DNA of 54,296 nt, from contig SLNH01000218.1 of NCBI GenBank assembly GCA_007133195.1, positions 1 to 54,296 on the forward strand, in the 5' to 3' direction. The notes under the pieces were generated by a model. The model made no database searches. It was not told where the DNA came from and was given only the letters and a program-made list of their open reading frames with translations. Positions 2,117 to 31,236 of the stretch are shown one piece after another. Source of the DNA: Nannocystineae bacterium. GTDB taxonomy: Bacteria > Myxococcota_A > Polyangia > Haliangiales > Haliangiaceae. Numbering within the stretch: position 1 is the first letter of the stretch; every line of letters starts with the position of its first letter. The translations under genes were made by a program, and so were the position numbers.

Positions 2117-3334
2117 TCACGCGCTGCGGCGGCGGGGCTTGTTCGGATCGGGCCGTTCGATGACTACCGCGATGCCCTGCCCTCCGCCGATGCACACGGT
2201 GCAAAGCGCGTAGCGCCCGCCACGGCGACGCAGCTCGTAGAGCGCGGAGAGCACCAGCCGGGTGCCGGTGGCCGCCATCGGATGGCCGAGGGCGATGGCC
2301 CCGCCGTTGACGTTGACGCGATCGTCATCGACGCCGAGCTCGTCCCGAATCGCCAAGTACTGCACGGTGAACGAGTCGTTGAGCTCAATGAGATCGATGT
2401 CGTCGAAGCTGAGCTCGGCCCGCTCGAGCGCGCGGCGGCAGGCCTGCACGGGCCCGAGGCCCATGAGCACGGGCTCGACGCCCACGCTCGCCCAGCTCAC
2501 CACCCGACCGAGGGGCGTGAGCCCGCGCGCGGCGGCGACCTCGCCCGTCGTCATCACGACCGCCGCGGCCGCGTCGTTCAACCCGCACGAGTTGCCCGCA
2601 GTGACCACGCCGTCGCGCTCGAACAGCCCCGGCAACGCGGCGAGGCCTTCGAGCGTCGTCTCGGGCCGCGGGCTCTCGTCGGTATCGACACGGATCTCGC
2701 CGCGGCGAGACGGGATCGTCACGGGGGCGATCTCCTCGGCGTAGATCCCGCGCTCTTGCGCGGCAGCGGCCCGCTTTTGCCCCGCTGCCGCCGCCTCGTC
2801 GGCCGCGCGCCGCGAAACGCCGCGCTCGCGAGCCAGGTGTTCGACGGTCTCGCCGATCGCACAGCCTGCCTTCGGATCGTAAAGCGCGCTGAACAGCGTG
2901 TCGTCGACGTCACTCTTGATCATCTTCCAGCCGGTGCGTACGCCGCGCATGGCGTAGGGGGCCATGCTCATATTCTCGGCGCCGCCGGCCAAGACCATCG
3001 TCGCCTCGCCGAGCGCCAGCGCGCGGCCCGCGTGAGTGAGGGCCTCGATGCCCGATCCGCACGCCGTGTTGACGACGACCGCGGGTGCCTCGATCGGAGC
3101 CCCCGCGTCGAGTCCGACGTGCCGGGCGAGATAGACCGCGTCTTTGGACGTTTGAAGGACGTTTCCGAACGCGATGGCATCGATCGTCGCGGAGTCGACC
3201 GCGCTGCGCTCGATCGCGGCGCGGGCTGCCGCGGCGCCTAGCTCGGTGGCGCTCAGGGAGCTCAAGCGGCCCAAAAACGAGCCGACCGGGGTGCGGGCGC
3301 CTTCGAGGATGACGATATCTTGGCCTGGAATCAT
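2117..3334 (-). CDS. Acetyl-CoA C-acyltransferase (thiolase)
   Basis: A 405-residue degradative-type thiolase that cleaves 3-oxoacyl-CoA with CoA to release acetyl-CoA. The nucleophilic cysteine is C92 in NTACGSG. The C-terminal active-site motifs GHPMAATG (His) and CIGGGQG (Cys) are both present. The usual ELNEAFA loop reads ELNDSFT here, a conservative departure. Its ATG overlaps the last four bases of paaN, so the two are translationally coupled. In this operon it would perform the last step of a ring- or chain-degradation route, like PaaJ/3-oxoadipyl-CoA thiolase, but acetyl-CoA acetyltransferase activity cannot be excluded from the sequence. Confidence 0.92.
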   Translation of the reverse strand: MIPGQDIVILEGARTPVGSFLGRLSSLSATELGAAAARAAIERSAVDSATIDAIAFGNVLQTSKDAVYLARHVGLDAGAPIEAPAVVVNTACGSGIEALTHAGRALALGEATMVLAGGAENMSMAPYAMRGVRTGWKMIKSDVDDTLFSALYDPKAGCAIGETVEHLARERGVSRRAADEAAAAGQKRAAAAQERGIYAEEIAPVTIPSRRGEIRVDTDESPRPETTLEGLAALPGLFERDGVVTAGNSCGLNDAAAAVVMTTGEVAAARGLTPLGRVVSWASVGVEPVLMGLGPVQACRRALERAELSFDDIDLIELNDSFTVQYLAIRDELGVDDDRVNVNGGAIALGHPMAATGTRLVLSALYELRRRGGRYALCTVCIGGGQGIAVVIERPDPNKPRRRSA

Positions 3335-5031
3335 GATTCTACTCGGGTGGGAGGCAGTTCAGTTTTGGACTGGACGATGCGAAACCGATCGGCGACGAAG
3401 GCGAGATCCGTGAGGCAGGCGTTGCCCGCCGGGTTGAGCCCGGTCACGTGGTAATCGCTATACGCCGCGGTGAAATTCATCGGGCGCTGCCCGATCAGGT
3501 TGATGCCCACCGACGCGCCCGCCGCCCAGAACGTCTCCTGCACGCGCTGGGCGTACTCCTCGTCCGTGGTGTAGGCGTACGAGGCGATCGCGCCGCAGGT
3601 GCGGGCGTCCTCGGCGGCGCGGGCGAGCGCGTGATCGCGATCCTCGGCCTCGATGACGAAGCCCACCGGCCCAAAGTGCTCTCGGCGGTAGATCGCGTCG
3701 GCCCCGTCGGCCGCGACGATCAGCGGGGTGAGCGTGCGCGCTTTGGGAAACTCGGGGTGCGCATAGGCTCCGTGTCTGCGCAATACGCGGGCGTCGCCGA
3801 CCTGTTCCGCGAGGGCGTCGATGGTCGCGATGAGCCTGGGGTTTTGCACGGCGCCGGCCACCGCCGCGGCGCGTGCGGGATCGCCAAGCAGAGCGTCTAT
3901 CGTCTCGATCAGGCGCGCCGCGAACGCGTGCGCGTCGATCCGTCCTTTGTCGGTTTCGACGCCGCCCCGTGGCACGAAGATATTTTGCGGCGAGGTGCAC
4001 ATCTGACCCGAGAACAGCGCCACGCCCTGCGCGATCGCGCTCAGCGTGCCCTCGAGATCGCGGGTGGAGTCGACGATCACGGCGTTACACCCCGAGGTCT
4101 CGGTGTAAACCCGCGCGTGGCGCACATGCTCCTCGAGCCAGGCGCCAAACTCCTGGCTGCCGGTAAAGTCGACGATCGCCACCTCGCCGCGCGCAACGAG
4201 CTGCTTGGTGAGCGGCGCGTCGGGCTCGTCGGCAGCAAGCGTGACGAGATTCGGATCGAAGCCGGCCTCGGCGATCACCTCCCGCGCGATCTCGACCGCC
4301 ATGGCCATCGGCAAGATGCCGCCCGACTGCGGCTTGATCACCACCGGGTTCGCCGTGGCGAGGTTCGCAAAGATCGCCGGATAAGCGTTGAACGCCGGGT
4401 AGGACCCGCAGGCCACCACGGCTGCGAGCCCTCGGGGCATGAGCCGATAGCGCTTTTCGAGGCGCACGGGGCCAGCGCCGAAGGACCGCTCGAACTGCGC
4501 CGACTCGGGCACATCCTTCATCGCCTTGTACGCGTAGGCCAGCGCCTCGAGGCCGCGATCGAGGGAGTTCGCCCCGCTGCCGGCGAACGCCATCGTAAAC
4601 GCCTGGCCGGCGGTGTGCATCGTCGCGTAGCCGTTGGCGAAGACATCGGCCGCCAGGCGATCGAGAATCTCGAGGCACGTCCCCACGCGCGTGTCGATCG
4701 ACGCCGCCTGCCAAGGCACCTGGGCGGCCTTCGCCGCCGCGACGAGCGCGTCGAGCCCGGTTTCGGGGTCAATCGCGGGGTAATCGATGCCGAGCGGCTC
4801 GCCGGTATACGGAGACACTTCGGCCCCGAGCCGCCCGCGCTCGCCGGGCATCGTCAGTGGAAACGATCTGCCGAGCATCCCCTCGAAGCGAAGGCGCCCC
4901 CGCTCGCGCGCTCCGGCCGGATGGTGCTTGCGGCTCGGAGACTCGGTAAAGGGCGTCCAGGCGCCCCGCGTAGCGGCCGCGTCGAGTGCGCCGTCGAGCG
5001 TCGCGCGGTGTTTGTCGAAAAATGCTGTCAT
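3331..5031 (-). CDS. paaN: PaaN-type aldehyde dehydrogenase
   Basis: A 566-residue aldehyde dehydrogenase of the PaaN (phenylacetic acid degradation) branch that lacks the hydratase domain of PaaZ. The catalytic cysteine lies in SGQMCTSPQN and the general base Glu in YTETSGCNAV; FTGSQEFG is the nucleotide-binding turn. The long N-terminal region before the dehydrogenase core (about 100 residues, with SRKHHPAG and SPYTGEPLGIDYP) is typical of this branch. A strong GGAGGAG Shine-Dalgarno precedes the ATG. The gene lies between a lipocalin-like gene (24 bases upstream) and a thiolase (4-base overlap). The substrate is not known; an aromatic or ring-opened aldehyde, perhaps produced by the dioxygenase at the head of the operon, is an inference. 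Confidence 0.88.
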   Translation of the reverse strand: MTAFFDKHRATLDGALDAAATRGAWTPFTESPSRKHHPAGARERGRLRFEGMLGRSFPLTMPGERGRLGAEVSPYTGEPLGIDYPAIDPETGLDALVAAAKAAQVPWQAASIDTRVGTCLEILDRLAADVFANGYATMHTAGQAFTMAFAGSGANSLDRGLEALAYAYKAMKDVPESAQFERSFGAGPVRLEKRYRLMPRGLAAVVACGSYPAFNAYPAIFANLATANPVVIKPQSGGILPMAMAVEIAREVIAEAGFDPNLVTLAADEPDAPLTKQLVARGEVAIVDFTGSQEFGAWLEEHVRHARVYTETSGCNAVIVDSTRDLEGTLSAIAQGVALFSGQMCTSPQNIFVPRGGVETDKGRIDAHAFAARLIETIDALLGDPARAAAVAGAVQNPRLIATIDALAEQVGDARVLRRHGAYAHPEFPKARTLTPLIVAADGADAIYRREHFGPVGFVIEAEDRDHALARAAEDARTCGAIASYAYTTDEEYAQRVQETFWAAGASVGINLIGQRPMNFTAAYSDYHVTGLNPAGNACLTDLAFVADRFRIVQSKTELPPTRVES

Positions 5032-5055: not shown

Positions 5056-5508
5056 TCACCGCCGGACGCGCCGCCACTCGAGCTCGTATCGCCGGATCAC
5101 CCCGGAGCGCGCTTCGATTTCGTAAGAAAGCGTCAGGAGCTCGCCGCGCAGCGAGACCGAGCGGGTTTGTGATCTCCCGACGAGTTCCGGTACGGAGGCG
5201 ATCTGCACGTGGTGGGTGACCCTGCCCCGATCGAGCGTCCACCGGCCGGCGTAGGCCAAAAAACTGTCGTAGGCGGCGGCCTTGCTCGCCTCGCTGGCCT
5301 CGGTATAGGCCTCGAGGCGAGTCACGGCGAGCGCCTCGCGATCGGCCCGCGCCAGCATCGCCGACATCCTCCCGCAGGGCGCGTACAAAAGCTGCCCCAA
5401 ACCGTCGGGGCCGAAGGGATGGGTCGGCGAACGCCCGTCGGAGTAGCGGATCTCGAAACAGCGAAGCTCGTAGGCGCCTGCGAGCTCCTCGGCCGTCGGC
5501 TCGCTCAA
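5056..5508 (-). CDS. Lipocalin-like domain protein
   Basis: A 150-residue protein matching the lipocalin-like (Lipocalin_5) family: AGAYELRCFEIRYSDGRSPTHPFGPDGLGQLLYAPCGRMSA, interrupted here only by residue choices, then FLAYAGRW and VTHHVQIASVPELVG. These small beta-barrel proteins occur beside catabolic enzymes; some bind hydrophobic ligands, most are uncharacterised. The start is a TTG at 5508 that overlaps the TGA of the dioxygenase gene (TTGA), with GAGGAA eight bases upstream. Larger readings starting further upstream run inside the dioxygenase gene and are rejected. Coupling on both sides marks it as a true member of the operon. Confidence 0.72.
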   Translation of the reverse strand: MSEPTAEELAGAYELRCFEIRYSDGRSPTHPFGPDGLGQLLYAPCGRMSAMLARADREALAVTRLEAYTEASEASKAAAYDSFLAYAGRWTLDRGRVTHHVQIASVPELVGRSQTRSVSLRGELLTLSYEIEARSGVIRRYELEWRRVRR

Positions 5509-7013
5509 CCGAGTTCCTCGCCCGGCACCCAGGTGGCGTGAAAGCCCGCTGGCACCCGCTGCGGAATACGCACGGTGGCGATCGGTCCGTCTGTGATCGC
5601 CTGCGCGTGAAAGATCTGACAGGTGCTCGACCAGTCGCGGGTATCGGTGACGAATGTGACGAGATAACCGTCGTCCTCGGCCTTGGCCCCCGCGCGCGGG
5701 CAGAACGGCGCTTCGCTGCCGAACACGCCCTCGCCGTAGTCCCAGCGCTCGTGGGCGCCGGTCTTGAGGTCGTATTTGACCAGGCTGTGAAACGCCGCGG
5801 GGATCTCCTCGGGGATATGCTGGAGATATGCGTAGCGGTTGTCCAGGCCCAGCACCGACGGGGCGATCATCGGAAACTCGGTGTTGAAGTCGTCGAGCGC
5901 GCCTTCGCGCACCTCGCCGGTCGCGAGGTTCAGGCGCCACTGATAGAGGTTTGCCTGCAGCTTAAGGCCGGCCAACATCGCCGCGATCTTCCCGTCGGCC
6001 GGATCCGGCCGCAGCGTGGGATCGCTCGTTCGGCAGCCGGTCATCACGACCCAATCGCCCTCTTCGTAGCAGTTGACGACGTGCAGCATGTAGCACGGCT
6101 CACATTCGAACCACCGCACGTCCGCGTCGTCGCCAAAGCGCGGGATCACGCCGTACCGCGTCGGCACCTCCGGGTGAAACAGCGGTACGCGCTTGCCGGT
6201 CTTTTCGAACAGCTCCTTACTCATGAACACGGGGAAGTCGTGGAGGATCGAGTAATTCGGCGTCACCCCGATGTCGTGGGGGCGCCTGGGACCGGGGAGG
6301 CCGATGTCGACGTGATGAAAACGCCCGGCCTCCGTGTACACCCCGTACTGCATATAGGGCGGCTGGTCGCTATAGCTGAAAAAGACGAAGTCGCCGGTGG
6401 CCGGATCGACCCGAGAATGCGCCGAGATCCGCCCCGTGAGGTTGCCGGCGAGATCTTCGATCCCCTCGGTCTCGAGAGTCTCGAAATTCAGCGCGTAGGG
6501 CTGGCCCGATTCGTACCAAAGCGCCAAGAGCCGCCCTCGGTAATGCAGAAGGTCGGTATTGGCCGTGTCCTTGAGCGGCCCCCGCGGCAGCGAAAAGTCG
6601 AAGGGCCCGAGCACGCCGGGCCAGATGCTCTCCTGCGCGCGGCGCTCATCTTCGAAGCAATAGGTTCGGATGTAGCGGTTGCGATAGCGGGCCTCCCCGT
6701 TCTCGAACCAAATCCCGTGGACCATCCCGTCGCCGTCGAACCAGTGATAGCGGTTCTTCGGGGCGTGGGCGGAGTTCGGTCCGTTGCGATAATACGCGCC
6801 GTAGAGATCGCGCGGGATCTCACCCTGAACCTCCAGCTTCTCCGCCGAAATTTCGCTGGTAATCGGCGCGAACAGGCCGTGGAGGTAGGGGTTGTCGATC
6901 TCGTCGATCCACGGTGGGGCGTCCGTGGGTCGTTTGCCTGCGGGTGAGAGTGTCTTGTCATGTCGCCGCGTAATCGGGAGCTCATTCATAGGTGCCGGTA
7001 GGATGACATGCAT
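5505..7013 (-). CDS. Carotenoid/stilbene cleavage dioxygenase family protein
   Basis: A 502-residue non-haem iron oxygenase of the carotenoid cleavage dioxygenase (RPE65/lignostilbene dioxygenase) family, which splits a conjugated C=C bond with O2 to give two carbonyl products. All four iron-ligand histidines can be found: SAHSRVD, the second His of the HDIGVTPNYSILHDF block, YMLHVVN and the C-terminal GFHATWVPG. The length is normal. The start is either the ATG at 7013 or the ATG at 6989 eight codons later; neither has a clear ribosome site. It is the first gene of an operon with a lipocalin-like protein, PaaN and a thiolase. Apocarotenoid, stilbene or phenylpropanoid cleavage are all possible. 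Confidence 0.9.
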   Translation of the reverse strand: MHVILPAPMNELPITRRHDKTLSPAGKRPTDAPPWIDEIDNPYLHGLFAPITSEISAEKLEVQGEIPRDLYGAYYRNGPNSAHAPKNRYHWFDGDGMVHGIWFENGEARYRNRYIRTYCFEDERRAQESIWPGVLGPFDFSLPRGPLKDTANTDLLHYRGRLLALWYESGQPYALNFETLETEGIEDLAGNLTGRISAHSRVDPATGDFVFFSYSDQPPYMQYGVYTEAGRFHHVDIGLPGPRRPHDIGVTPNYSILHDFPVFMSKELFEKTGKRVPLFHPEVPTRYGVIPRFGDDADVRWFECEPCYMLHVVNCYEEGDWVVMTGCRTSDPTLRPDPADGKIAAMLAGLKLQANLYQWRLNLATGEVREGALDDFNTEFPMIAPSVLGLDNRYAYLQHIPEEIPAAFHSLVKYDLKTGAHERWDYGEGVFGSEAPFCPRAGAKAEDDGYLVTFVTDTRDWSSTCQIFHAQAITDGPIATVRIPQRVPAGFHATWVPGEELG

Positions 7014-8905: not shown

Positions 8906-9691
8906 TCATCCGAGCAGGCGATGCTTGATGTCGGTGGCGACCGACGCGCTCCGTTCGATGAGCATCCAGTCGAAGCCGATAATCAAGCCCTGGTAGCCCC
9001 GCTTCAAGCAGTCGTCGGCCTGCTCGACCGACCCCGCGAGCCCCCCCATGGGCACGCCGGACCGCCGAATGGCCTCTTCCACGACCTCGACCTTCTCTTG
9101 CACCTCGGGGTGTAGGCCTTGGGTGGGGCTGGCCACCCGGCCCATGCTCGTCGTCAGGTCGTGGCGCGATACCACGAACATGTCCACATCCGGCACGCGG
9201 AGGATCTCTTCGATGTTGGCGATGGCCTCAGGTCGCTCGACTTGGATAATGGTGAACACCTCGTCGTTTGCGATCTCCACGTAGTCGCTCTGCGGCATCC
9301 CCCAGCGATACTGGGTCATGAAGGGCCCCCATCCGCGATCTCCTCTCGGCGGGTAGTACATCGAACGCACTGCTGCCTCGGCGTCTTCGGCGGTCGCCAC
9401 GAGCGGAAACATGATGCCGAGCGCCCCGGCGTCGAGCACAGGCTTGACGATCCAGTGCACGTTCCAAGGGACGCGCACCATCGGGATCGCGTTAGTTCCG
9501 GCGGTGGCCGCGATCATCGCGTGCAGGGAGCTGATGTCGATGACCCCGTGCTCCATGTCGAAAATGAGCACATCGACCCCCGAGCGGGCCCACAGCTGAG
9601 CATGAGCGACGCTGGGCATCGTTACCACCATCATGGTGATTGATCCCCCTTCCGATAGCCGTTGTTTCGCGGTGTTCAGAGCAACAGGCAT
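8906..9691 (-). CDS. HpcH/HpaI-family class II aldolase
   Basis: A 261-residue metal-dependent pyruvate aldolase of the HpcH/HpaI (2,4-dihydroxyhept-2-enedioate aldolase/citrate lyase beta) family, which makes or breaks C-C bonds with pyruvate enolate. Expected residues are present: His in FDMEHGVID, Arg in MVRVPWN, the metal-binding Glu in IIQVERPEA and Asp in PDVDMFVVSRHDL. The ATG at 9691 is preferred over the TTG just before it because a GGAGG lies seven bases upstream. The gene is divergent from an operon that starts with a second pyruvate-aldolase-type protein (RraA-like) across a 540-base gap, which suggests a shared pathway. Natural substrate unknown. Confidence 0.88.
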   Translation of the reverse strand: MPVALNTAKQRLSEGGSITMMVVTMPSVAHAQLWARSGVDVLIFDMEHGVIDISSLHAMIAATAGTNAIPMVRVPWNVHWIVKPVLDAGALGIMFPLVATAEDAEAAVRSMYYPPRGDRGWGPFMTQYRWGMPQSDYVEIANDEVFTIIQVERPEAIANIEEILRVPDVDMFVVSRHDLTTSMGRVASPTQGLHPEVQEKVEVVEEAIRRSGVPMGGLAGSVEQADDCLKRGYQGLIIGFDWMLIERSASVATDIKHRLLG

Positions 9692-10235
9692 CAAGGTCCT
9701 CCGTAGACATCGTTGAGGTCGCCGAGGTAGAGGTCACGCGACCGAGCTTCTGGACTCGCGGGGGCCCTCACCAAAGGACATCGCGACCAAGGGCCACGCG
9801 ACGAACAGCGGCTCTTGTACCCGACCGGCTCCCGCCACCACAAGCCCTCTCCGGTCATGCGCAGTCGCGCGCGTCGCGCAGGTTACATTTCGAATTAACA
9901 ATGTTCCAAACCAGCCGCGGCGGGCGACCGCGCGCGAAGAACCTGTTGTTTGCGAAACTCGTTGTTGAAAATCGAGCGCTTACGCGAGGGCTCGAAAGGG
10001 CGTCGCGCGATTTTCCAAACCGGGAGCGTTAGAGCCATCACCTGTCTTTGTCCTTGGTTGAACGCCCGCGAACTGTGCGTGAGAAGGAGTTGCAAGTTAG
10101 ACTTCTGTCTTGGCTTTTTCCACTTACTCGTGTTACCAGGGCGTGAGTTCGTCTGGGAGTGAGGTTTTGTTAGCGTGAGGAGCCGGCCCACGTAGAGCCA
10201 TGACGGAGGGCCCGCGTGTTCGAAAGGGGGGGGCG
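9692..10235. other. Divergent intergenic region, AT-richer than surroundings
   Basis: About 540 bases without a convincing gene between the divergent aldolase genes. Roughly 9885-10180 is visibly richer in A and T than the rest of the window (for example ATTTCGAATTAACAATG and GGCTTTTTCC) and probably holds the two promoters. I could not assign clear -35/-10 pairs. Confidence 0.4.
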
Positions 10236-10925
10236 ATGTCCAGCTCGGATGCGGAGAGGATCGTCCGGGACCGTGAAATCAACACGAGCACCTTGGCCGA
10301 CGTGCTCGACGGACTCGGACGGTACGGCGCGTTGACCTCGCGGCTTACGCGGAAATCCGGAAGGCGTAAAACCCTCGTCGGCCGGGCGTACACCGTAAGC
10401 TGGGCGCCGGTTCGAAAGCGGCACGACATCACGCAGCCGATGGTGTCGACCTGGCAGCAGGTCAGGCCGTTTCTCGTCCCTGAGCTGCGCGAGGCCCGCG
10501 GGCGCGTGTACGTCGCGGGTGGCGGCGAGCTGGTGACGGAAGCCGCGCTCGCCGGCGGACTCAGCGCGACCTATTTCCAGGAGCTCGGTTTCGAGGGGCT
10601 CGTGCTGGGCGGCGCCGTGCGCGATCCGCGAGCGCTCGAGGCGCTCGAGATCCCGGTGGTCGCTTCGAATGTGGTGCCGACCGATACGCAGGGCTCGTAC
10701 CGCGTGGTGGAGTGCGGCACCCGCTGCATCATCGAGAACGTCGCTATCGACACCGGCGACTGGATCGTAAGTGACGACGGCGGGACTGTCGTGATACCGG
10801 ACCAGATCTTCGCCGAGGTCGTGCAGAAGGCGCAGAGCATCGATGAGCTGGAGGACGGCGTGGTGAGTCGGCTCAAGCGCGGCGAGCGGCTTCCGGATAT
10901 CATCGACGAGATCGGGCGGATCTGA
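10236..10925 (+). CDS. RraA-family aldolase-like protein
   Basis: A 229-residue RraA-superfamily protein, related to 4-hydroxy-4-methyl-2-oxoglutarate/oxaloacetate aldolases. It has the NTSTLADVLDGLG start, a GRVYVAGGGELV strand, the substrate- and metal-binding GGAVRDPRALE motif and the C-terminal SDDGGTVVIP. With the GGxxRD motif intact, an enzyme is more likely than an RNase E regulator. The ATG at 10236 follows an AGGGGGGG ribosome site; an ATG at 10200 is possible. It heads a four-gene operon: chorismate mutase starts one base after its stop. In this context it could cleave or form a pyruvate-derived bond in a prephenate-derived intermediate; that is inference. Confidence 0.85.
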   Translation: MSSSDAERIVRDREINTSTLADVLDGLGRYGALTSRLTRKSGRRKTLVGRAYTVSWAPVRKRHDITQPMVSTWQQVRPFLVPELREARGRVYVAGGGELVTEAALAGGLSATYFQELGFEGLVLGGAVRDPRALEALEIPVVASNVVPTDTQGSYRVVECGTRCIIENVAIDTGDWIVSDDGGTVVIPDQIFAEVVQKAQSIDELEDGVVSRLKRGERLPDIIDEIGRI

Positions 10926-10926
10926 G

Positions 10927-11295
10927 GTGGGACGCGCATCCGCGAAGCCGCCGGGCGCTCCTGCGAGTGGCACCGCGCGCCGATCGACCGCGTCTCGCGA
11001 CGACCTCGAGCGACTCCGTCGGCTCGTGCGGGAAGCGGACGATCGGCTCATCGAAGTCGCCGCCGAAAGGATAAACCTGTGCCTCGAGATCGGCCGTTTC
11101 AAGGCGTTTCGGGGCATTCGAACCCGCGATCGCGGAGTCGAGCGCCGGGTGCGCGCGAACGCGCGGCAAGCGGCGGCGAGCCGAGGCCTCGATCCCGACA
11201 TGGGTGAAGCGCTGGTAGCGCTCTTGATCGAATATTCGGTGGTGGCGCAGTCGAACGCGGCCGAGTCGCTCACGGGCGCGGGATCGGAGACGTGA
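10927..11295 (+). CDS. AroQ-fold chorismate mutase / isochorismate-pyruvate lyase-like protein
   Basis: A 122-residue all-helical AroQ-type protein with a 20-residue basic N-terminal tail. Counterparts of E. coli chorismate mutase residues are visible: Arg in LRRLVREADDR, Arg in AAERINL, Lys in GRFKAFRG, Asp in RTRDRG, Glu in VERRV and Gln in SVVAQ. The usual DxxRE motif reads DRGVE, so the Arg equivalent to R51 is Val. That VExxV pattern is seen in the isochorismate-pyruvate lyase branch, so either activity is possible. The GTG start lies one base after the RraA stop. In this operon it probably supplies prephenate to the BacA-like protein two genes downstream. Confidence 0.8.
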   Translation: MGRASAKPPGAPASGTARRSTASRDDLERLRRLVREADDRLIEVAAERINLCLEIGRFKAFRGIRTRDRGVERRVRANARQAAASRGLDPDMGEALVALLIEYSVVAQSNAAESLTGAGSET

Positions 11296-11314
11296 AGCGG
11301 GGAGGAACGCGAAC

Positions 11315-11635
11315 GTGACTGCATACATGATAGGTGACGTGTGTGAGATCTTCGATCTCGAGACCTTTCGAAGCTATAACCGAGCAGTTCCGGACACGAT
11401 CCTCCAGTATGGAGGACGGTTCGTCGTGCGTGGTGGTGAGACGGAGGTGGTGGAGGGAGACTGGCAGCCGGGGCGGGTCGTGGTCCTCGCGTTCGAGGAC
11501 ATGGCGGCTCTCAGGCGGTGGTACAACTCACCCGAGTACGGCGCAGTGCGACCGAGGCGCCAGTCATCGGCGAAGAGCAACATTGTGTTCGTGGAGGGAG
11601 CCCGCGACGCCATGGGCACCGGAGGCGTCGCGTGA
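11315..11635 (+). CDS. DUF1330-family small protein
   Basis: A 106-residue protein of the DUF1330 family (dimeric alpha-beta barrel fold): AYMIGDVCEIFDLETFRSYN, ILQYGGRFVVRGGETEVVEG, and VVLAFEDMAALRRWYNSPEY, which is the family signature. The biochemical role of the family is unknown; similar ferredoxin-like barrels act as monooxygenases or isomerase-like accessory proteins in biosynthetic clusters. The GTG start has GGAGGA upstream. The TGA stop overlaps the GTG of the next gene (GTGA), so translation is coupled to the BacA-like protein. Confidence 0.82.
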   Translation: MTAYMIGDVCEIFDLETFRSYNRAVPDTILQYGGRFVVRGGETEVVEGDWQPGRVVVLAFEDMAALRRWYNSPEYGAVRPRRQSSAKSNIVFVEGARDAMGTGGVA

Positions 11636-12810
11636 CTTTGGCGCGGCTGTTCGAGGGCCGCGTGTTCGCGAAGCCGGGGATCTCTTCCGGCCCCGCCTTT
11701 GGCGAGGCGGTAGCCAGGAGCGGAAGGCCCGTCGTCTGTTTCGTCCAGGCGGCGGAAGCCGCCGCCGCCCACGACTACCTCGACATCATCGGCTGCCCAA
11801 ACCGAGAGATCGTCACGCTCGACAGGGTAGAGGATTTGTCGGGGCTGGAAGCCAGCGACGGTCCCGACGCGATTCCGCTCGTCGTGCTCCCCGCCGTGGA
11901 GCCCGGGCTCAAGGATGTTTTTTTCCGCCACCCCCGTATGCTGCTGTTCGCCGATCACCTCTATCGGCCCGCAGGTGGCGGAGCGACGTGCTTGTGGACC
12001 ATCGGCACGACGAGGTCGGCGGTGGAGAGGCTGGCGCCGTACGTGCGCTGGCAGGAGCCGCGCCGCGCGCGCGCCGCGCGCAGGGCGGTCGCGCAGGCGC
12101 ATTTCGGTCCCAGCTACGTCGATGACGGCCTCACGTGGTCCGCCCTCGCCTCTTCCTCGGTGTCCGCCGTCCCGGTCCACGGGCTGGGGCCACTCGGCAC
12201 CAACATCGCGCGCGCTTGTGAACGCTTCGTGGCCAACGCCGGTCTCGGCACGAAGTCCACGGTGACCATCCACGGTCGCGGGGTGGAGCCGCTCGAGTAC
12301 GCGGCGCTCGCGGCCTCGCAAGTGCAGCCGAGCGTTCTCCCGCTCCACGTCGAATGCGCGGTCTTTTACGATCTCAAGGCCCTCTTCGAACAGCGGCGAG
12401 CCGAGTCGGTGTTCGCCGCGCATCTGTATATGGAGCTCGATTCGATGCAGCTCGCGATTCGCCCCGGAGCGAGGGCCCCTGGTCCGCTCTCGAATTTACG
12501 GGTGGCCTCTCATCCCTCACCCAGCGGGCTCGCCGCTCCACTTCTCCTCGAGGGAGCGGAGCTCGTCACCGCCTCGTCGAACGCCGACGCTGCCGAGCGC
12601 GTCCGGGGCGGCTCCGCAGACGTGTGCGTCACGACCGAGTCGGGCAGGCGGCGTGCGGGGCTGGACACGGTGCACGTCTTTGGCTCGCCGACGATGCTGT
12701 TCACCATCGGAACGCCGCTCGGACGAGAGGCGCTGGCACAGCACGCGGCAGCCGCAAATTCAGCCGCCTATCCCAACCGCGGGCTTACAAGCCATCAGAT
12801 CGAGTGGTAA
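11632..12810 (+). CDS. Two-domain protein with BacA-like (prephenate decarboxylase) C-terminal domain
   Basis: A 392-residue protein. Its C-terminal half resembles the prephenate dehydratase/BacA fold: GLGPLGTNIARACERF near residue 185 recalls BacA's GPEGT motif, MQLAIRP recalls YGLAVRP, ASHPSPSGL near 294 matches the SHPSP motif, and SSNADAAERVRGGSADVCVTTES followed by FGSPTMLFTIG mirrors BacA's last third. BacA decarboxylates prephenate without aromatisation on the way to anticapsin/bacilysin. The first ~170 residues (ARLFEGRVFAKPGISSGP onward) belong to no family I recognise. The GTG start overlaps the DUF1330 stop. Alternatives are a diverged prephenate dehydratase or a non-catalytic homologue. 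The neighbouring chorismate mutase supports a prephenate substrate. Confidence 0.55.
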   Translation: MTLARLFEGRVFAKPGISSGPAFGEAVARSGRPVVCFVQAAEAAAAHDYLDIIGCPNREIVTLDRVEDLSGLEASDGPDAIPLVVLPAVEPGLKDVFFRHPRMLLFADHLYRPAGGGATCLWTIGTTRSAVERLAPYVRWQEPRRARAARRAVAQAHFGPSYVDDGLTWSALASSSVSAVPVHGLGPLGTNIARACERFVANAGLGTKSTVTIHGRGVEPLEYAALAASQVQPSVLPLHVECAVFYDLKALFEQRRAESVFAAHLYMELDSMQLAIRPGARAPGPLSNLRVASHPSPSGLAAPLLLEGAELVTASSNADAAERVRGGSADVCVTTESGRRRAGLDTVHVFGSPTMLFTIGTPLGREALAQHAAAANSAAYPNRGLTSHQIEW

Positions 12811-12894
12811 GCCGTCAGGCCGGCTTCCCGGGCTCGTCGCGCCGCACGGCCTAGCCACATGCAAAGCGGCGCATGCGCGGGGTATCCTCCGCGC

Positions 12895-13737
12895 GTGCGC
12901 CCCGAAGCTCCATCCGATCCCGCCCTGCGGTTCCTCGACCTTCCCACCGGACGCGTCGCGTACACTGACGAGGGCGAGGGCCCCTGCCTGGTCGCCATCC
13001 ACGGCATCCCCGGCTCGCTGCGCGATTTCCGCTGGCTCGCGCGCGCGCTCTCCTCCGAGATTCGGTTCGTCCGGCTCGACATGCCCGGCTTCGGACACAC
13101 CGAGCACGACGATCCGCCCACGAGCTGGTCGGAGCTGGCGCGCTGGGCGCTCGAAGCGGCATACACCATCGCCGGTGGCCCCTTCTCCCTGTTGGGCCAT
13201 TCGATGGGTGCTCCTCAGGCGAGCCTCATCGCTTCGCTGGCGCCCGACGCGGTCCACAAGCTCGCGCTCGTGGCCCCCGTGGGGCTGCGGCCGCACCGGG
13301 CTTACCGCAGGTCGCCGCCGTTCACCTGGATGAACGCCGCTTTGCATAGCCAGCGGTTCGGCCGCGTGTCGCTCGCGCTCATTCGGGCCGCCTTCGTCCG
13401 CCTCGGCTTTCCGCGCTCGACACCCGATCGCGACATCCTGCGGAGCATCGCCGTCGTCGCCGAGATTCCCTTCGAGGATCACCGCCGCGCGATCGAGACG
13501 ATGAGCATCCCCGTATTGGCGGCATACGCCGACGACGATCCCCTCGTGGAGCCCGCCATCCCGCGCGAGCTGCTGGCAGCCTGCCCGAGCGGAAGACGAC
13601 TTCACTTCGACACCGGCGGGCACAACCTGCAAAAGACGCGCGCCATCGAGCTCGCAGACGCCCTGCGCGCCTTCCTCACGGATGGCCCCGGTGAAGCCAA
13701 GGGCGAGGAGCCCCTCGCGAAGTATTCCTCTCGCTAA
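12895..13737 (+). CDS. Alpha/beta hydrolase
   Basis: A 280-residue alpha/beta-hydrolase with an intact catalytic triad: nucleophile Ser in LLGHSMGAPQ, Asp in YADDDPLVE and His in TGGHNLQKT. The oxyanion region is AIHGIPGSLRDF and the strand after it RFVRLDMPGFGHTE. The helical cap lies between about residues 125 and 210. Substrate unknown: esterase, epoxide hydrolase or C-C hydrolase types all fit. The start is a GTG at 12895; an ATG at 12859 in the same frame is the alternative and adds twelve residues without family similarity. It follows the BacA-like gene by 84 bases on the same strand, so it may or may not belong to that operon. Confidence 0.85.
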   Translation: MRPEAPSDPALRFLDLPTGRVAYTDEGEGPCLVAIHGIPGSLRDFRWLARALSSEIRFVRLDMPGFGHTEHDDPPTSWSELARWALEAAYTIAGGPFSLLGHSMGAPQASLIASLAPDAVHKLALVAPVGLRPHRAYRRSPPFTWMNAALHSQRFGRVSLALIRAAFVRLGFPRSTPDRDILRSIAVVAEIPFEDHRRAIETMSIPVLAAYADDDPLVEPAIPRELLAACPSGRRLHFDTGGHNLQKTRAIELADALRAFLTDGPGEAKGEEPLAKYSSR

Positions 13738-24665: not shown

Positions 24666-27600
24666 TCAAGGCTTGTTTGCATCGACGATCACGACCCGGT
24701 CGGTGGCGCTGCGGCCGAAGGTCTCTGGGTGATACATCTCCTCGGCCTTGGCCGGCGGCGCGATGAAGCGACCGGGGGTCGTGGCCCGCGCCACATAGCT
24801 GTAGTCGTGGACGCCGCCCCGCACGAGGGTGGAAAACGCCTCGACCCGCTCGTCGCGCATGTTTTGGTGCTCGTACCAGGTGCGGCGCCACCACCAAAAG
24901 TCGCCATCGTCTTCGCCGTCGTCGGGGACGTCCCCGGTGACCGCGAGGCGGGGATTTTGCGCCTCGAGCCCGGCGGGCAGCGGATCGACGAGCGCCACGT
25001 GGTAGCGCCGGGTGGGCGCGACCATCTTGACCTCGACCTCGACCCGGGCGCCGGCGCGAATCTCCCAGGTGCCGTCATCACGGCGGCGCACGTCGTCGGG
25101 ATCGTCTACGCCGCGATATGTGCGCTCGATGGCGAAGCCGTGATCGGCTGCCTCGAGGTCGAGATCGCGCGGGGCGTAGTTCATCCCGATCCGGTAGTAG
25201 AGCCGACCCGCACCCTGCTTGTGCAAAGTCAGCGGTAGCTCACCGCCGGCGCCCGTGAGGTGGCTCATGGGCACGGCGATCCGATGCCGATCGGTGCTCC
25301 GGCCCCGGAACTCGTGGCCGCCCGCGTAGTCTTCGCCGAGCCACGCCCGGGCCACGAAATCGGGCGTTTGGCTCTCGTAGGCGCGAAAGTAGGCATCGAG
25401 CGCCGTGAGCACGAAGCTATTTTCCTGGCTATTTTTCCACTTGCCGCGCTTGCGATGCGCGAGAAGCCCTCGGGCGAGCTTGGGCGCGAGATCCGCCTCG
25501 GGCTGATGGGCGATCATCGCCTCGAGGATCACGGCGTCGGCGCGCCGGCTCGAGTGAAGGATCAAGTGCCCCTCCTCGAGCGAGCTGTCATCGACGAAGT
25601 GGGCGGACGCAGCGGTCTCGGTCACGCGGTTTTCCAAGTAGCTGGTGATGCGATCCAGCACCGCGGCGTCGCCGGCATCCGCGGCGACCCGATAGAGCCA
25701 CCCGACGGCGATGAGGGGGAGCTCGTCCGGGCCACCGGCGCGGCCAAGCAGCGATGCGGCGCCGCTCGCGTCGGCGTCGCCGCGAAGGGCGCGCACATAC
25801 AGCGCGTAGGCGATGATCACCCGGCGCGTTTGTTCGGTATACCAGCGCGGAATGTGCCGCTCGATGTCTTCGAGGTAGCGCGCGCTCCGCTCGAGCACGG
25901 CCTCGGGCACCTCGTAATCCTTGTCGGCTGCGCGTGCCAGCGCGTGCGCGACGTGTACCGAGATAAACGGAATCGCCCTGCCGCCGGGACGCCACAGCCC
26001 GAAGCCCCCGCCAGCCCTCTGCCGCGACGCGAGCTCCTCGATGTCTCGCTCCATCGCCTCATCGACCTCGTCTTGCGCGGGCAAGCCTTCGGCGTCGAAG
26101 GCATCGAGCACGTCTCTTAGCGCCGCGATGGCGATGACGCGCGAGGCGATCCGCTCCGACTGCTCGTAATCCCGGTCATAAAGATCCAAAAACGCGTCCG
26201 TGAGCGCCTGGAGCGCCGTCGAAGATGTGGTGACCTCTAGCTCCCCGAAGTCCGCGAGCGCATCGGGCGGCGCCTCGACCGGCTGGGTCACCGCACCGTC
26301 ATCGATCTCCCCGTAGGTGGCAAACGCCTCGGTGGTAGCAGGCGTCCACACCGGGAAGTCCACCTCGGCCGCGTCTGCCCACTCTCCCGACGCGGCCGCG
26401 ACCTGGACGTTCGCGGAGCCGGCCTGCTCGGCATCGGCAGGAAACCTGACCTCGACCCGCTCGTTGGCGGGCACCTCGACCTCGCGGCCCGCGGGCTCGG
26501 CGAGCGACAGGTTCGCGGCCCGAGCGGCGACGCGCACGCGCATCGCCTCGTCGGTCTGGTTTTGCACGACCACCGGCAGCTCGGCCTCATCACCGTAGTT
26601 CAAAAACCGCGGCAGGCTCGGCCGCACCATGAGCGGAAGGCGCGCCGTGATCGCGTCCTCGGCGGCGCCGAACCGGTTTTCGCCGTGCGCGGCGATGGCC
26701 ATCACCCGGTAGCGCGTGAGGTTATCGGGCATGTCGATGTCGAGCCTCACTTCTCCCCTCGGCCCCGTGCTCGCCGCCGGCGAAAACGCCGCCAGCGGGT
26801 TCAAATCGGTGCGCACGTCGATGGGCTCGGCGTCTCCGTCGCCGGCTGGCACCGCGTCGTCGTCCATGGCCATATCCGCCGGCGCGGGAGCCGCCTCCAG
26901 CGCGACCTCGGAACGCTGACGCCTAACGCCCCCGGCTTCGCCGTCGGCGGCAGCTGATGGCTCTTCGATCTCCTCGAGATCGGCGATCGCCACATGGGAC
27001 CGTAAGTGGAGGTCGCGAACCGCGGCGGGTCGCTCTCGATAAAAGGTGTCGATCGGATCGCCCATCTCGTAGCCCGTAAGCGCGAGGATCGCCTCGTCGA
27101 CGACGATCACCGCCACCTCCGCGCCCTCGACGGCCTCACCGCGATGGTCGCGCACGCGGACGTCCACCGCGGTGGAGGCGCCCGGCGCCACCTCGCCCGC
27201 GCGCGGCACGGCGTCCACGTCGAGCGCGCGCTCTTCGGTCGATACCTCCAAGTTCAATGTCCCGCTCGCGAACGCCGGACGGGGCGGCACATCGTCGCGC
27301 GGCTCGCCGTCGTCATCGAGCCGGGCGGTCTGGCCCACCGCATCGACCTGCACGTGCACGTTCGGGATGTGCGCGGACTCGATGGGGACCTCGATCGACT
27401 GGCTCGGCCCGTCTAGCTCGATCCGCTCCGCTTTCACGAGACCGCTCCGCCGCCACGTCACGAGCGCCTCCGCCGGCGAAAACGGTGCGGACACCAAAAT
27501 TTCGGCCGTGTCGCCGGGCTCGTATTCGTCGCGATCGGGGATGAGTTCGATGTCCTCTTGCTCCACGCGGCGGGCCGCCGGCCGCGCCGCGCCGCTCACC

Positions 27601-30600
27601 CACCGAGATAGGCGCGTGGCGCTCTGTCGGCCCTCGTCGTCGGTCGTGATCGCGGTGATCGCGTAGCGACCGCCGGCTTCGGTGTCGAACTCACAGCTCA
27701 CCGGCTCTTCGGCCGAGCGCACCTCGCACTCCTGCGTATCGCGCAACTCTTCGTCCCACTCACCGGCGCGAAACGTTTGCGAAACCCGCGCCGCCGTCAC
27801 GCGGATCGGGCGTCCTTCCACGACGTCGCCGTCGAGGTCGGCGACGATCGCGTCCACCTCGAGCGGCTCGCCCCGTTCGACGAAGTAGCGCTCGGTGCGC
27901 AGGCCGACGTAGTGCTCCCCCGGATGAACGAGGAAGCTCGTCTCGGACGACCACGCCTGTCGGTTGACGTCCTTCACGGTGGCCGTCGCCTCGACCGCCA
28001 TCGGCCTGGGCGGATCGATGGCGCCGAGCCCCATCGCCAGCCGGTGCTCGCCGCCGGCGTCCGTTTCGCCCTGCAAAGACTCGGTCGTCACGGCCGAGCT
28101 AGCCGCGCGTCCCCGCCACCACGGCGTCCATACGCCGAACGAAAAATCGTCGTGTCCCGGCGGCGCGTACGATCCGGGGCTCGCCTCGACCTCCCAGCGG
28201 GTCTCGGCGCCGGGAAGCGGCCCGCCGGCGTAATAGCTGGCCGTCGCCGTCGCGCGCGCGGTGTCGCCGGCGAAGTAGGGGCCCGCGTCGTCGAGCTCCG
28301 CGTCCACTTCGAACTCCGGCCGCCGAAACTCCTCGATGGCGAACTCGTGGCGATGACTGCGGCTTGTCACGCCGGGCACCCCGGGGGCCGTGAGCTCGAT
28401 GGAGGCCGAGCCGAGGTTCGGCGTCTCGGGGATCTCGAAATCGAGATCGAAGCCGCCCAAGGCTGTCGTCTCGGTCTCGCCTTCGGCGATCTCGTTTTGC
28501 CGGGCGTCCACGACTCGGTAGCGGACGCGCCGGGCCTCCGCGGCGAGGCGAACGTCCCCCGCTGGCTCGTTTTCTAGCCTACGGAGCCAGCCCTTGACGT
28601 GCACGGTCTCGCCCGGCCTGTACATGGCGCGATCGTCGAGGACGTGCCAGCGGAGCTCGTCGCCCCGGCCAGGATCCTGGAACAGTTGTGATCCACCCCA
28701 CCTGGCCGGGGTGCTCGGCAAAAACGCCACGTCGTCACCGCGCGACGCCTTCAAGTAGGTATCCCGGTCGGGGGACGCGGGAAGCCCGAGCCTCGCGATC
28801 CCGGCGTCGTCGCTCTGCGCGGCTTCCGTCTCGCCAGAGATCGACAGGTTCACCCCGGATAGCGGAGCGCCGGTGTCGAGCGAGGTCGCCCAGGCGACCA
28901 GGCCGCCCGCGTCGGAAAAGCCGTCCACGCCGATCTCCGTCGACTGCACCCAGGTGGTCACGCGCCCGCGCCGCCGGCGATCCTCACCGCGCCGTGCGGG
29001 CTCGATCACCACCACCAGGTGCCCCAGGCCGTCCTCGCCCAAATAATCGCCGAGCCCGAATCGGGTGTCGACCGGCACATCCGCGTCCCCGTCGATCGCG
29101 CGCCGTTCGCTGACCACGGGTTCGCCGGGCGGGACGGGTTTCGGATCTCCCGAACCCGGATGATAGCGCGCGATATCCTGCATGTAGTCTCGATAATCGG
29201 CCCAGTCGCCCGGCTCCACGCGGCGGATGTCGACCTCGACGGCGTCGTGGTTCACGGTTCGAAAGGTCACCTCCGGCTCCGCTGCGGGATCCGCGACCAC
29301 GAACGGGCCCACGGCGGAAGCCAGCCACGGTCGCGCCGGCCCCACATCGAACTCCTCTTGCACCTTCTCCGCCAGCGTCTGACCGTGACGATCCCGGAGG
29401 TCCTCCGAGACGGTCACCTCGTAGGTCTCCCGGCCAGCTTTATGGCCACTGATGCGAATCGTCGATCCACTGACGGTGACGTCCAGGCCCGGCGTTTCGG
29501 GCCTTACCTCGACCATGTCCTCGTCGAACGCTTCTTGATCGAGCCGGTTCGAAAACTCGAACGTGATCTGCGTGGGCGGCTCGCACGGGCCGTACCGCCC
29601 GCAGTCCGCGCGGGCGAGCTCGAGCGGGCCGTAGGTTTGGAACGAGTAGGTCTGCGCCGAGTCGGAGGTGAGCGGCCCCTCGGCCGACGGAGCGCCCTCG
29701 CGAAGGCCGTAGGACACGCGACTGTCGTAGGGCAGCGGCTCGGCGGCGCGAAACGCGATCCAGTCTTCGACGCCCCCCTCGTCGTCACCCAGGCGCCGGA
29801 GCGGCGTATCGCGCGCCTCGAGCGCGGCCTCGAGGTCTTCTCGGTCCAGCCACTCGAAATCGAGCTCCTCGCCGTCCGCCTCCACGAACGCGAAGTCGGC
29901 GAGCGCGTCGCGATCGACGCGCTGGTTTAGCTCGAGGAACATGACTTGGTCGCGCTCGTGATCGGTGCGCCCCCCGCCCCGCCCGTGCCGATGCCCGCGC
30001 GCAGGCTGGGGGTTTGGCCACGCGGAGACGACTTCGACCGGCGGCGTCTCGAACCGCCAGCTCGGCGCGTCCTCCAACCCGCTCCCGGACGCAGACCGCG
30101 TGTCCTCCGGGACCTCCACCTCGTATCGCGTCGCCATCGGCAGCCGCTCCCCGCGCGCCTCGAACAGGAGCGTCCGGGTTCCCACCCAGCGGACCTCGCC
30201 TGCGGGCTCGGGATCGATTCGCAGCGGCGCATCGGCCCGAGACAACGCCTCGTGGGAGGTCACCGCCACCATCGGTTGGTTGAAGGTGACGCTCACCTGG
30301 GGCGCAAGCGGCACCTCGCCCTTTGGCGAAAACCGCAGAACATCCAAGGGATCGTCCGGGTCGGCGGCGTCCTGCGGCGGAGGCGCAAGCTCGTCCTCCG
30401 GCGGAAACGTCCCGTCGATCGTCTCGCCCGCGCGCGGGGCTGGCGGCGACCGGTCGCGAATGGCCCAATCGCGGGTCTCGGCGGCCTCTTCGTCGAGCGC
30501 GGGGAGCCGGGCGAGCAGATCCGCCGTCTCTTCGGCGGTGAGCGCTCGCCCCGCCAGCGCCGGCGGCCGCTCGTGATCGTCCGGGGCAAAGTCGCGAGCC

Positions 30601-30791
30601 TCGGACAGCGAGACATCGAAGGCCGGCTCGTCGTCGAAGCTTACGGTCCCCAGCTCCTCCGGCTCGCGCTGTTTTTCGCGCGGCGCCTCGGGGACGGGCT
30701 CGGGGCTCCGCCCGCACACGGCGAAAAGCACGAGGGCGACCGCGGAAGCGGCCAACATGGTGACGAACAGATCTCTGCGAGCAATCGGCAT
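24666..30791 (-). CDS. Giant alpha-2-macroglobulin-family lipoprotein without thioester cysteine
   Basis: A 2,041-residue secreted lipoprotein. The signal peptide (MPIARRDLFVTMLAASAVAL) ends at the lipobox FAVC; a GAGGT site precedes this ATG, so an upstream start at 30908 is rejected. The N-terminal 600 residues contain Ig-like domains; then the macroglobulin landmark YRPGETVHVKGW (near 725), IVVDEAILALTGYEMGDP (near 1235), the A2M core around 1320-1430 (PRGEVRLDIDMPDNLTRYRV, FLNYGDEAELPV) and an alpha-helical TED-like domain. Where the thioester CxEQ is expected (near 1540), the sequence reads DYEQ. Such proteins are thought to trap proteases in the periplasm; without the thioester, trapping must be non-covalent. 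No pbpC gene is adjacent. Confidence 0.9.
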   Translation of the reverse strand: MPIARRDLFVTMLAASAVALVLFAVCGRSPEPVPEAPREKQREPEELGTVSFDDEPAFDVSLSEARDFAPDDHERPPALAGRALTAEETADLLARLPALDEEAAETRDWAIRDRSPPAPRAGETIDGTFPPEDELAPPPQDAADPDDPLDVLRFSPKGEVPLAPQVSVTFNQPMVAVTSHEALSRADAPLRIDPEPAGEVRWVGTRTLLFEARGERLPMATRYEVEVPEDTRSASGSGLEDAPSWRFETPPVEVVSAWPNPQPARGHRHGRGGGRTDHERDQVMFLELNQRVDRDALADFAFVEADGEELDFEWLDREDLEAALEARDTPLRRLGDDEGGVEDWIAFRAAEPLPYDSRVSYGLREGAPSAEGPLTSDSAQTYSFQTYGPLELARADCGRYGPCEPPTQITFEFSNRLDQEAFDEDMVEVRPETPGLDVTVSGSTIRISGHKAGRETYEVTVSEDLRDRHGQTLAEKVQEEFDVGPARPWLASAVGPFVVADPAAEPEVTFRTVNHDAVEVDIRRVEPGDWADYRDYMQDIARYHPGSGDPKPVPPGEPVVSERRAIDGDADVPVDTRFGLGDYLGEDGLGHLVVVIEPARRGEDRRRRGRVTTWVQSTEIGVDGFSDAGGLVAWATSLDTGAPLSGVNLSISGETEAAQSDDAGIARLGLPASPDRDTYLKASRGDDVAFLPSTPARWGGSQLFQDPGRGDELRWHVLDDRAMYRPGETVHVKGWLRRLENEPAGDVRLAAEARRVRYRVVDARQNEIAEGETETTALGGFDLDFEIPETPNLGSASIELTAPGVPGVTSRSHRHEFAIEEFRRPEFEVDAELDDAGPYFAGDTARATATASYYAGGPLPGAETRWEVEASPGSYAPPGHDDFSFGVWTPWWRGRAASSAVTTESLQGETDAGGEHRLAMGLGAIDPPRPMAVEATATVKDVNRQAWSSETSFLVHPGEHYVGLRTERYFVERGEPLEVDAIVADLDGDVVEGRPIRVTAARVSQTFRAGEWDEELRDTQECEVRSAEEPVSCEFDTEAGGRYAITAITTDDEGRQSATRLSRWVSGAARPAARRVEQEDIELIPDRDEYEPGDTAEILVSAPFSPAEALVTWRRSGLVKAERIELDGPSQSIEVPIESAHIPNVHVQVDAVGQTARLDDDGEPRDDVPPRPAFASGTLNLEVSTEERALDVDAVPRAGEVAPGASTAVDVRVRDHRGEAVEGAEVAVIVVDEAILALTGYEMGDPIDTFYRERPAAVRDLHLRSHVAIADLEEIEEPSAAADGEAGGVRRQRSEVALEAAPAPADMAMDDDAVPAGDGDAEPIDVRTDLNPLAAFSPAASTGPRGEVRLDIDMPDNLTRYRVMAIAAHGENRFGAAEDAITARLPLMVRPSLPRFLNYGDEAELPVVVQNQTDEAMRVRVAARAANLSLAEPAGREVEVPANERVEVRFPADAEQAGSANVQVAAASGEWADAAEVDFPVWTPATTEAFATYGEIDDGAVTQPVEAPPDALADFGELEVTTSSTALQALTDAFLDLYDRDYEQSERIASRVIAIAALRDVLDAFDAEGLPAQDEVDEAMERDIEELASRQRAGGGFGLWRPGGRAIPFISVHVAHALARAADKDYEVPEAVLERSARYLEDIERHIPRWYTEQTRRVIIAYALYVRALRGDADASGAASLLGRAGGPDELPLIAVGWLYRVAADAGDAAVLDRITSYLENRVTETAASAHFVDDSSLEEGHLILHSSRRADAVILEAMIAHQPEADLAPKLARGLLAHRKRGKWKNSQENSFVLTALDAYFRAYESQTPDFVARAWLGEDYAGGHEFRGRSTDRHRIAVPMSHLTGAGGELPLTLHKQGAGRLYYRIGMNYAPRDLDLEAADHGFAIERTYRGVDDPDDVRRRDDGTWEIRAGARVEVEVKMVAPTRRYHVALVDPLPAGLEAQNPRLAVTGDVPDDGEDDGDFWWWRRTWYEHQNMRDERVEAFSTLVRGGVHDYSYVARATTPGRFIAPPAKAEEMYHPETFGRSATDRVVIVDANKP

Positions 30792-31236
30792 CTCAACCTC
30801 GATCAGACGCACGAGCGGCGGCGAGGGTCTACGCGGGGTTCCGGACCGAAATCCCACGCTTCCTCGCAGTCTCGGTCGCGGGCGATAGCCCCCTCCCTCG
30901 CCCTGCATTGCGTGGAATTACAGGAGGTTGCCCAGGAGGCACGCGAATGTCAGGACAGGCCCTCGGCGGCCGGCCCATGGGCCCGACCGTGCGGCGGTGC
31001 CGTCGGACACAAGGTGCGAGCTCGCACGTTCGGCACGTCGCGCGCAGGGCGATCGGGAGCATACGCGCCGGGCCGGAAAAATACGAGCTGCGAACCCAAA
31101 AGCCTACCGAGATCGCCTGTCGAGCCGTGCGGCGCGCCTTCGGCCGCGGTGGTATTCTCCCCAAAGTGGCGTGCGCGCCCGCGCGCGGCGTGCCGCGGAC
31201 AACCCGAGAGCGGCGACAGGCTAACGAAAATGCTCC
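30792..31236. other. Intergenic region between divergent macroglobulin and LysM genes
   Basis: About 445 bases with no convincing gene in any frame. It should contain the macroglobulin promoter. I see no clear promoter hexamers. Confidence 0.4.

Follow-up and report, generated by a model that had tools for sequence, protein, structure and literature searches.

The present analysis concerns a four-gene operon on contig SLNH01000218.1 of a Nannocystineae bacterium (assembly GCA_007133195.1), the whole analysed stretch of which, 54,296 nucleotides long, is called the window here. On the plus strand, genes for an RraA-like protein (10200-10925), an AroQ-type chorismate mutase of the CM_2 family (10927-11295), a DUF1330 protein (11315-11635) and a protein related to BacA and TdaC (11632-12810; 392 amino acids, hereafter P0001) follow one another at distances of 1, 19 and -4 bases, and P0001 is translationally coupled to this chorismate mutase-containing operon. 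Re-reading of the open reading frames (ORFs) of the window reproduced these spacings and the five frames of the original prediction, which had been made from the letters alone and counted a divergent HpcH/HpaI gene as the fifth, and Pfam assigned with confidence all four family names proposed there (RraA-like, AroQ, DUF1330 and HpcH/HpaI). Translation of the RraA-like gene probably starts at the ATG at 10236 rather than at 10200, with AAAGGGGGGGG just upstream, and the DUF1330 gene starts at a GTG with GGGGAGGA ahead of it. Tentatively, and with somewhat less than even confidence, we regard the operon (10236-12810) as a small horizontally acquired pathway that would divert chorismate to a non-aromatic product.

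The C-terminal half of P0001 (12136-12708, plus strand) is a BacA/TdaC-type domain of the prephenate dehydratase (PDT) fold, presumed to be active from its profile matches, fold model and signature residues. Against the Pfam PDT model, 11632-12810 scored only 14.1 bits (E = 0.04; cut-off 25.2). Profiles were built from relatives of BacA and TdaC in plasmid records; one query, also used as one of the 13 family rows, was a Bacillus subtilis BacA sequence, which drew matches including genes annotated as BacA and is not contained in the TdaC-only profile. The combined profile matched P0001 at 81 bits, its best domain (residues 169-359) reaching 80.5, the TdaC-like profile alone at 65.8 and the BacA profile alone at 46.2, and no match to the BacA/TdaC profiles was listed among 2000 shuffles of the same P0001 residues. 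The homology to BacA-type proteins claimed earlier for this half was therefore confirmed, at 80 bits to the BacA/TdaC profile, and the predicted model of this half showed the PDT fold rather than an unrelated one. Solved structures matching the model have the type-2 binding-protein fold, and the enzymes among them include prephenate dehydratases and GqqA. When the whole of P0001 was compared with plasmid records, Phaeobacter TdaC was the sole kind of match; single-sequence searches found no relative by pattern matching in the genome or viral contigs and, elsewhere, only spurious antibody or weak matches.

The Glu-Asn motif of PDTs, the residues of which are kept in 24 and 25 of 25 PDTs, is found in none of 89 TdaC-like, BacA and P0001-type rows, the last term denoting P0001 and its Peregrinibacteria orthologues (0 of 4). 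The TRF triplet is not conserved in P0001, and since the stretch around TRF can be aligned in ways that differ by three columns, only the Glu-Asn motif was counted as firm. The C-terminal half carries GTN, SN, Cys-x-Thr-Thr and Met-x-Phe, which are signatures of the TdaC branch, and reads HPSP where TdaC-like rows read HPAP, whereas BacA rows have GTS, ST, Ala replacing Cys, and Met-x-Trp, and PDT rows have Glu-Asn-Ser/Thr, which occurs in no other row. In a tree of 44 rows, the four P0001-type proteins formed a single group (100/100) on a long branch beside the TdaC-like proteins (96/78). Sequence comparison makes the P0001-type proteins a deeply branching group within the BacA/TdaC superfamily; score and signatures bring them closest to TdaC, and the tree leaves their exact place open. 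A specifically BacA-like identity, as first suggested, was thus not upheld, the signatures and profile being nearer the TdaC branch and the tree undecided. Besides the window gene, a search of the phylum with the BacA/TdaC profile gave at most 43 bits, in ORFs of 366-495 amino acids, and those of these weak matches that were put into the tree grouped as ordinary PDTs.

TdaC, from the tropodithietic acid (TDA) cluster of Phaeobacter and relatives, shares GTN, HPxP, SN, Cys-x-Thr-Thr and Met-x-Phe with P0001 at 32% identity; unlike P0001, it is a single-domain protein, and its Phaeobacter locus has neither RraA nor chorismate mutase as a neighbour. BacA of bacilysin is another member of this superfamily, with domain identities mostly of 25-29%; it too has lost the PDT motif and has a prephenate-linked neighbourhood, but differs in its GTS, ST and Met-x-Trp residues, its one domain and its BacB, BacC, BacD, BacF and BacG partners (PMC9147277). 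BacA decarboxylates prephenate without aromatisation (PMC9147277). Queries for cupin, class-IV aminotransferase and ATP-grasp genes had no match in the 54 kb window, and none of the bacilysin partner genes was recognised among the adjacent genes scanned, in agreement with the original prediction that no BacB/BacG-like partner is present.

An alignment-based scan of genome contigs, in which loci were picked by the TdaC-like gene alone, gave 75 loci, of which one, from a metagenome-assembled genome of Peregrinibacteria (L020), contains a full-length P0001 orthologue, 41% identical along the entire protein. When 338 genomes of the same class were searched, two more genomes were added, L129 (full length) and L130 (222 amino acids). 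Full-length orthologues, including the duplicated lobe described below, were found only in L020 and L129, where the P0001-type gene overlaps a TyrA-PDT fusion gene by 4 bases; in L129 the fusion is followed by AroB (named from its sequence by eye), and the P0001-type gene of L130 is followed by PDT and TyrA as separate genes. The orthologues differ from the window in having TyrA/PDT neighbours, fused or separate, and AroB in L129. In the TyrA-PDT fusions (L020:11077-12591; L129:4872-6392, minus strand), the C-terminal PDT motif reads NATAF, the usual TRF being replaced.

The N-terminal half of P0001 (11632-12147, plus strand) repeats PDT lobe I in degenerate form and lacks lobe II, as profile comparison and predicted secondary structure reveal. 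It is real coding sequence, kept in the L020 orthologue, with a third-position G+C content (GC3) of 0.85. The N-terminal 176 residues of P0001 gave no BacA/TdaC-family profile match above shuffles. Within P0001 the two halves are 41% identical over 34 residues, and the profiles of the two halves, built from three orthologues, aligned with an hhalign probability of 96% (E = 5e-9). In the AlphaFold2 model of P0001, with a mean predicted local distance difference test (pLDDT) score of 76, the strand-helix order of the N-terminal half repeats that of lobe I in the C-terminal half, and the lobe II segment (equivalent to residues ~290-341) is missing; the N-terminal half modelled alone had a pLDDT of 38, and that model was not used. 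In the L130 protein (3289-3957, minus strand), a natural single-domain version of the P0001 type, lobe I of the N-terminal half joins the C-terminal half directly at the equivalent FADHxY position, as expected had recombination collapsed the repeat. The duplicate lacks the GPxGTN motif and is probably structural or regulatory. No description of such a half-duplicated PDT architecture was found.

The RraA-like gene (10236-10925, plus strand; Pfam RraA-like, E = 1.5e-21), predicted to encode a metal-dependent aldolase or decarboxylase, provides the strongest of the new evidence. An RraA homologous to that of the window adjoins a TdaC-like gene in 18 loci of distant taxa, 17 of them from the scan of 75 loci and one from a plasmid record. 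The loci are from Buttiauxella, Aeromonas, Proteus, Serratia, Morganella (three), Yersinia, Providencia, Acinetobacter, Aestuariivirgaceae, Ectothiorhodospiraceae, Actinoplanes, Embleya and Streptomyces (four). The window RraA is 42-50% identical to the TdaC-adjacent genes over the full length by alignment, and 52% to that of Yersinia by BLAST; TdaC-adjacent partners score 227-235 bits (48% identity and 235 bits for Proteus), the other plasmid RraA genes among the matches listed reach at most 75 bits, and the next RraA of the Actinoplanes genome scores only 34. With its conserved GGAVRD and PTDTQG motifs, the window RraA belongs, as judged from these comparisons, to a distinct, dedicated subfamily accompanying TdaC-like genes. 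This subfamily was found in one of 395 genomes of one order, namely the starting genome; the pair is therefore rare, and chance does not plausibly explain why two genes this uncommon lie side by side again and again in distant taxa.

A cupin gene is present in all 18 loci and a class-II 3-deoxy-D-arabino-heptulosonate 7-phosphate (DAHP) synthase gene in 13; two loci have genes for both a 2-oxoglutarate-Fe oxygenase and a class-IV aminotransferase, with ATP-grasp in addition in one of the two. The clusters of Proteus, Morganella, Yersinia, Serratia, Acinetobacter, Aeromonas and Streptomyces share the RraA subfamily of the window but differ in their single-domain TdaC-like proteins and in having no homologue of the window chorismate mutase or DUF1330. 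The compact form with RraA, TdaC-like, cupin and class-II DAHP synthase genes occurs in Yersinia, Proteus, Morganella, Serratia and Aeromonas (e.g., L079:539-3750, L019:7271-10460 and L042:9284-12222), and Acinetobacter rudis has a version without DAHP synthase. An RraA-TdaC fusion in Streptomyces was ruled out, as the adjacent ORFs lie in different frames. In the literature searched, no description of the RraA and TdaC/BacA-like pair, nor a function for these clusters, was found, consistent with the earlier statement that no such route was known; RraA was not joined there with prephenate dehydratase or DAHP synthase, and oxoglutarate aldolase and prephenate were named together only in one genome paper and one proteomics paper.

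Based on these observations, a pathway of three steps can be proposed. From its family, the AroQ protein would turn chorismate into prephenate. The C-terminal domain of 11632-12810 would, by homology, bind prephenate in its PDT-type cleft without dehydrating it to phenylpyruvate, and would most likely, like BacA, take off the ring carboxylate while leaving the ring non-aromatic, to give a compound of the dihydro-4-hydroxyphenylpyruvate type. The RraA-like metal enzyme could then act on the pyruvyl side chain of this intermediate by retro-aldol-type cleavage or decarboxylation. The sequences show the layout of the genes, their homology, the duplication within P0001, the loss of the Glu-Asn motif and the conserved pairing with RraA; we infer both substrate and product, the former mainly because the window and orthologue contexts share prephenate enzymes. 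The prephenate link of the original prediction accordingly gains support from the chorismate mutase neighbour and the TyrA-PDT and AroB genes of the orthologues, and its BacA identity does not. It is possible, although doubtful, that an undescribed branch of the shikimate pathway is present, in which a TdaC-type enzyme would convert prephenate to a non-aromatic intermediate, the pyruvyl chain of which would be cleaved or decarboxylated by a dedicated RraA, with small cyclohexenyl metabolites of a new class as the outcome. With similar reserve, such a branch might be thinly spread over Gammaproteobacteria, Alphaproteobacteria, Actinomycetota and the phylum of the window.

Several points weigh against this proposal. 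Neither TdaC nor any TdaC-like protein has a known activity; the role of TdaC has been called obscure (PMC7497051), and a Janthinobacterium makes TDA without it (PMC13163973). Support for P0001-type proteins beside TdaC-like ones was only 96/78, and the tree alternatives grouping P0001-type proteins with BacA (approximately unbiased test, p = 0.225) or with PDTs (p = 0.324) were not rejected. The window is without the cupin and DAHP synthase seen with the other RraA pairs. In addition, neither an RraA of this subfamily nor a CM_2 was detected in the L020 genome (G411), so that the window and Peregrinibacteria contexts share only prephenate enzymes.

Among the alternatives, it is rather unlikely that the TdaC-like domain acts on another small acid, such as a phenylacetate-derived intermediate of the kind once suggested for TdaC, with the chorismate mutase serving another need. 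TdaC sits in a TDA cluster that handles phenylacetyl-CoA catabolites and was first proposed there as a dehydratase (PMC7497051), the window has PaaN and thiolase genes at 2117-5031, and the PDB holds a PDT-fold protein with a different reaction, the acylase GqqA; against these stand the chorismate mutase inside the operon, the orthologues beside TyrA/PDT and AroB, and the DAHP synthase in 13 of the 18 RraA-type relatives. That 11632-12810 is a remote but ordinary prephenate dehydratase making phenylpyruvate is improbable: the fold is the same, a tree placement with PDTs was not rejected and a chorismate mutase is adjacent, but the Glu-Asn motif is absent, the TRF triplet is not conserved, its own genome already has a PDT whose ORF also includes a CM_2 domain (locus L001), and Peregrinibacteria have a separate PDT adjoining the P0001-type gene. 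A ligand-binding regulator with a periplasmic-binding-protein-like fold, sensing prephenate or the product and controlling the neighbouring enzymes, would fit the type-2 binding-protein fold, the second partial domain and the extra lobe without GPxGTN; this is distinctly improbable, however, as the C-terminal half of the orthologues keeps the TdaC-signature cleft residues and the relatives with one domain belong to compact clusters for biosynthesis where no other prephenate-using gene was recognised. Lastly, a degradative operon in which the RraA and HpaI aldolases break a cyclohexenyl compound down to pyruvate, a role left open by the original prediction, is very improbable, for although enzymes of meta-cleavage pathways occur in both aldolase families, HpaI is not retained alongside the rest of the system, and the relatives carry DAHP synthase (in most of them, boosting the shikimate pathway), aminotransferase or ATP-grasp genes, as is typical for biosynthetic pathways.

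As to the origin of the operon, its TdaC-like and RraA genes had no counterpart elsewhere in the sampled phylum (RraA subfamily, 0 other of 379 genomes), whereas two genomes of the same family contain 40% homologues of the adjoining hydrolase (12859-13737); the contig therefore looks native and the operon acquired. The G+C content of the operon is only slightly lower.

The significance of these findings lies in the TdaC family, as TdaC has long stood in the TDA cluster without an agreed reaction. With a TdaC-like domain coupled to a chorismate mutase operon, and orthologues beside TyrA, PDT and once AroB, the use of prephenate by this family becomes directly testable, and, if the proposed pathway is true, the same logic would supply the missing function of TdaC. 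The set of RraA, TdaC-like, cupin and DAHP synthase genes in well-known enterobacteria (Proteus, Morganella and Yersinia) has the appearance of a compact metabolite pathway.

Concerning the remaining genes, the chorismate mutase (10927-11295, plus strand; CM_2, E = 6e-12), the presumed prephenate source, keeps in an ungapped alignment R11, R28, K39, D48, E52, S84 and Q88 of the eight positions that we take to be the Escherichia coli active site, with R51 replaced by V. The DUF1330 gene (11315-11635, plus strand; E = 1e-30) encodes a small dimeric protein of the alpha-beta-barrel type, which may take the isomerase or helper role held by the cupin in related clusters, by analogy with these. DUF1330 adjoins BacA-like genes only in two Streptomyces clusters (L010 and L012), and generic DUF1330 genes, for example beside transhydrogenase genes, score equally well; as a specific partner of BacA it is therefore a weak candidate. 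The HpcH/HpaI-type aldolase (8906-9694, minus strand; E = 8e-32) lies divergently, about 505 bases from the operon, and its association is doubtful. By sequence comparison it is a generic HpaI-like aldolase, with no match among 31 relatives at E <= 1e-20 and no homologue in any TdaC-like locus, and is probably not part of the system. The two-pyruvate-aldolase pathway first suggested was therefore not supported, and of the neighbour conservation expected with it, the RraA and TdaC/BacA-like pair holds in distant bacteria while HpaI and the specificity of DUF1330 do not.

Other neighbourhoods were also observed. TdaC-like genes adjoin DUF6421, and often an ATP-grasp ligase gene is also present, in L018:3502-5309, L016:6716-8507, L027, L028, L064, L071 and some 35 further loci, from Bacillus, Priestia, Staphylococcus, Streptomyces, Paracidovorax and other hosts. 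DUF6421 is the PolE Fe/pterin oxidase family, and a PolF-type assignment was rejected on the same source (PMC12614342). The TdaC-like and DUF6421 combination looks like a second pathway family. In L010, L012, L014 and L015, BacA-like genes occur with ornithine cyclodeaminase, aminotransferase, phenylacetate-CoA-ligase-like and Dabb genes; DUF1330 and PhzF are also present in Streptomyces among these, and one BacA-like/ornithine cyclodeaminase cluster sits on a Pseudomonas aeruginosa plasmid.

Elsewhere in the window, the region 2117-5031 (minus strand) encodes a thiolase and PaaN, an aldehyde dehydrogenase of phenylacetate degradation that scored above the NCBIfam cut-off, a possible link to phenylacetate metabolism. 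A carotenoid/lignostilbene dioxygenase of the RPE65 family is encoded at 5505-7013 (minus strand), and an ORF of 2080 amino acids lies at 24666-30908 (minus strand).

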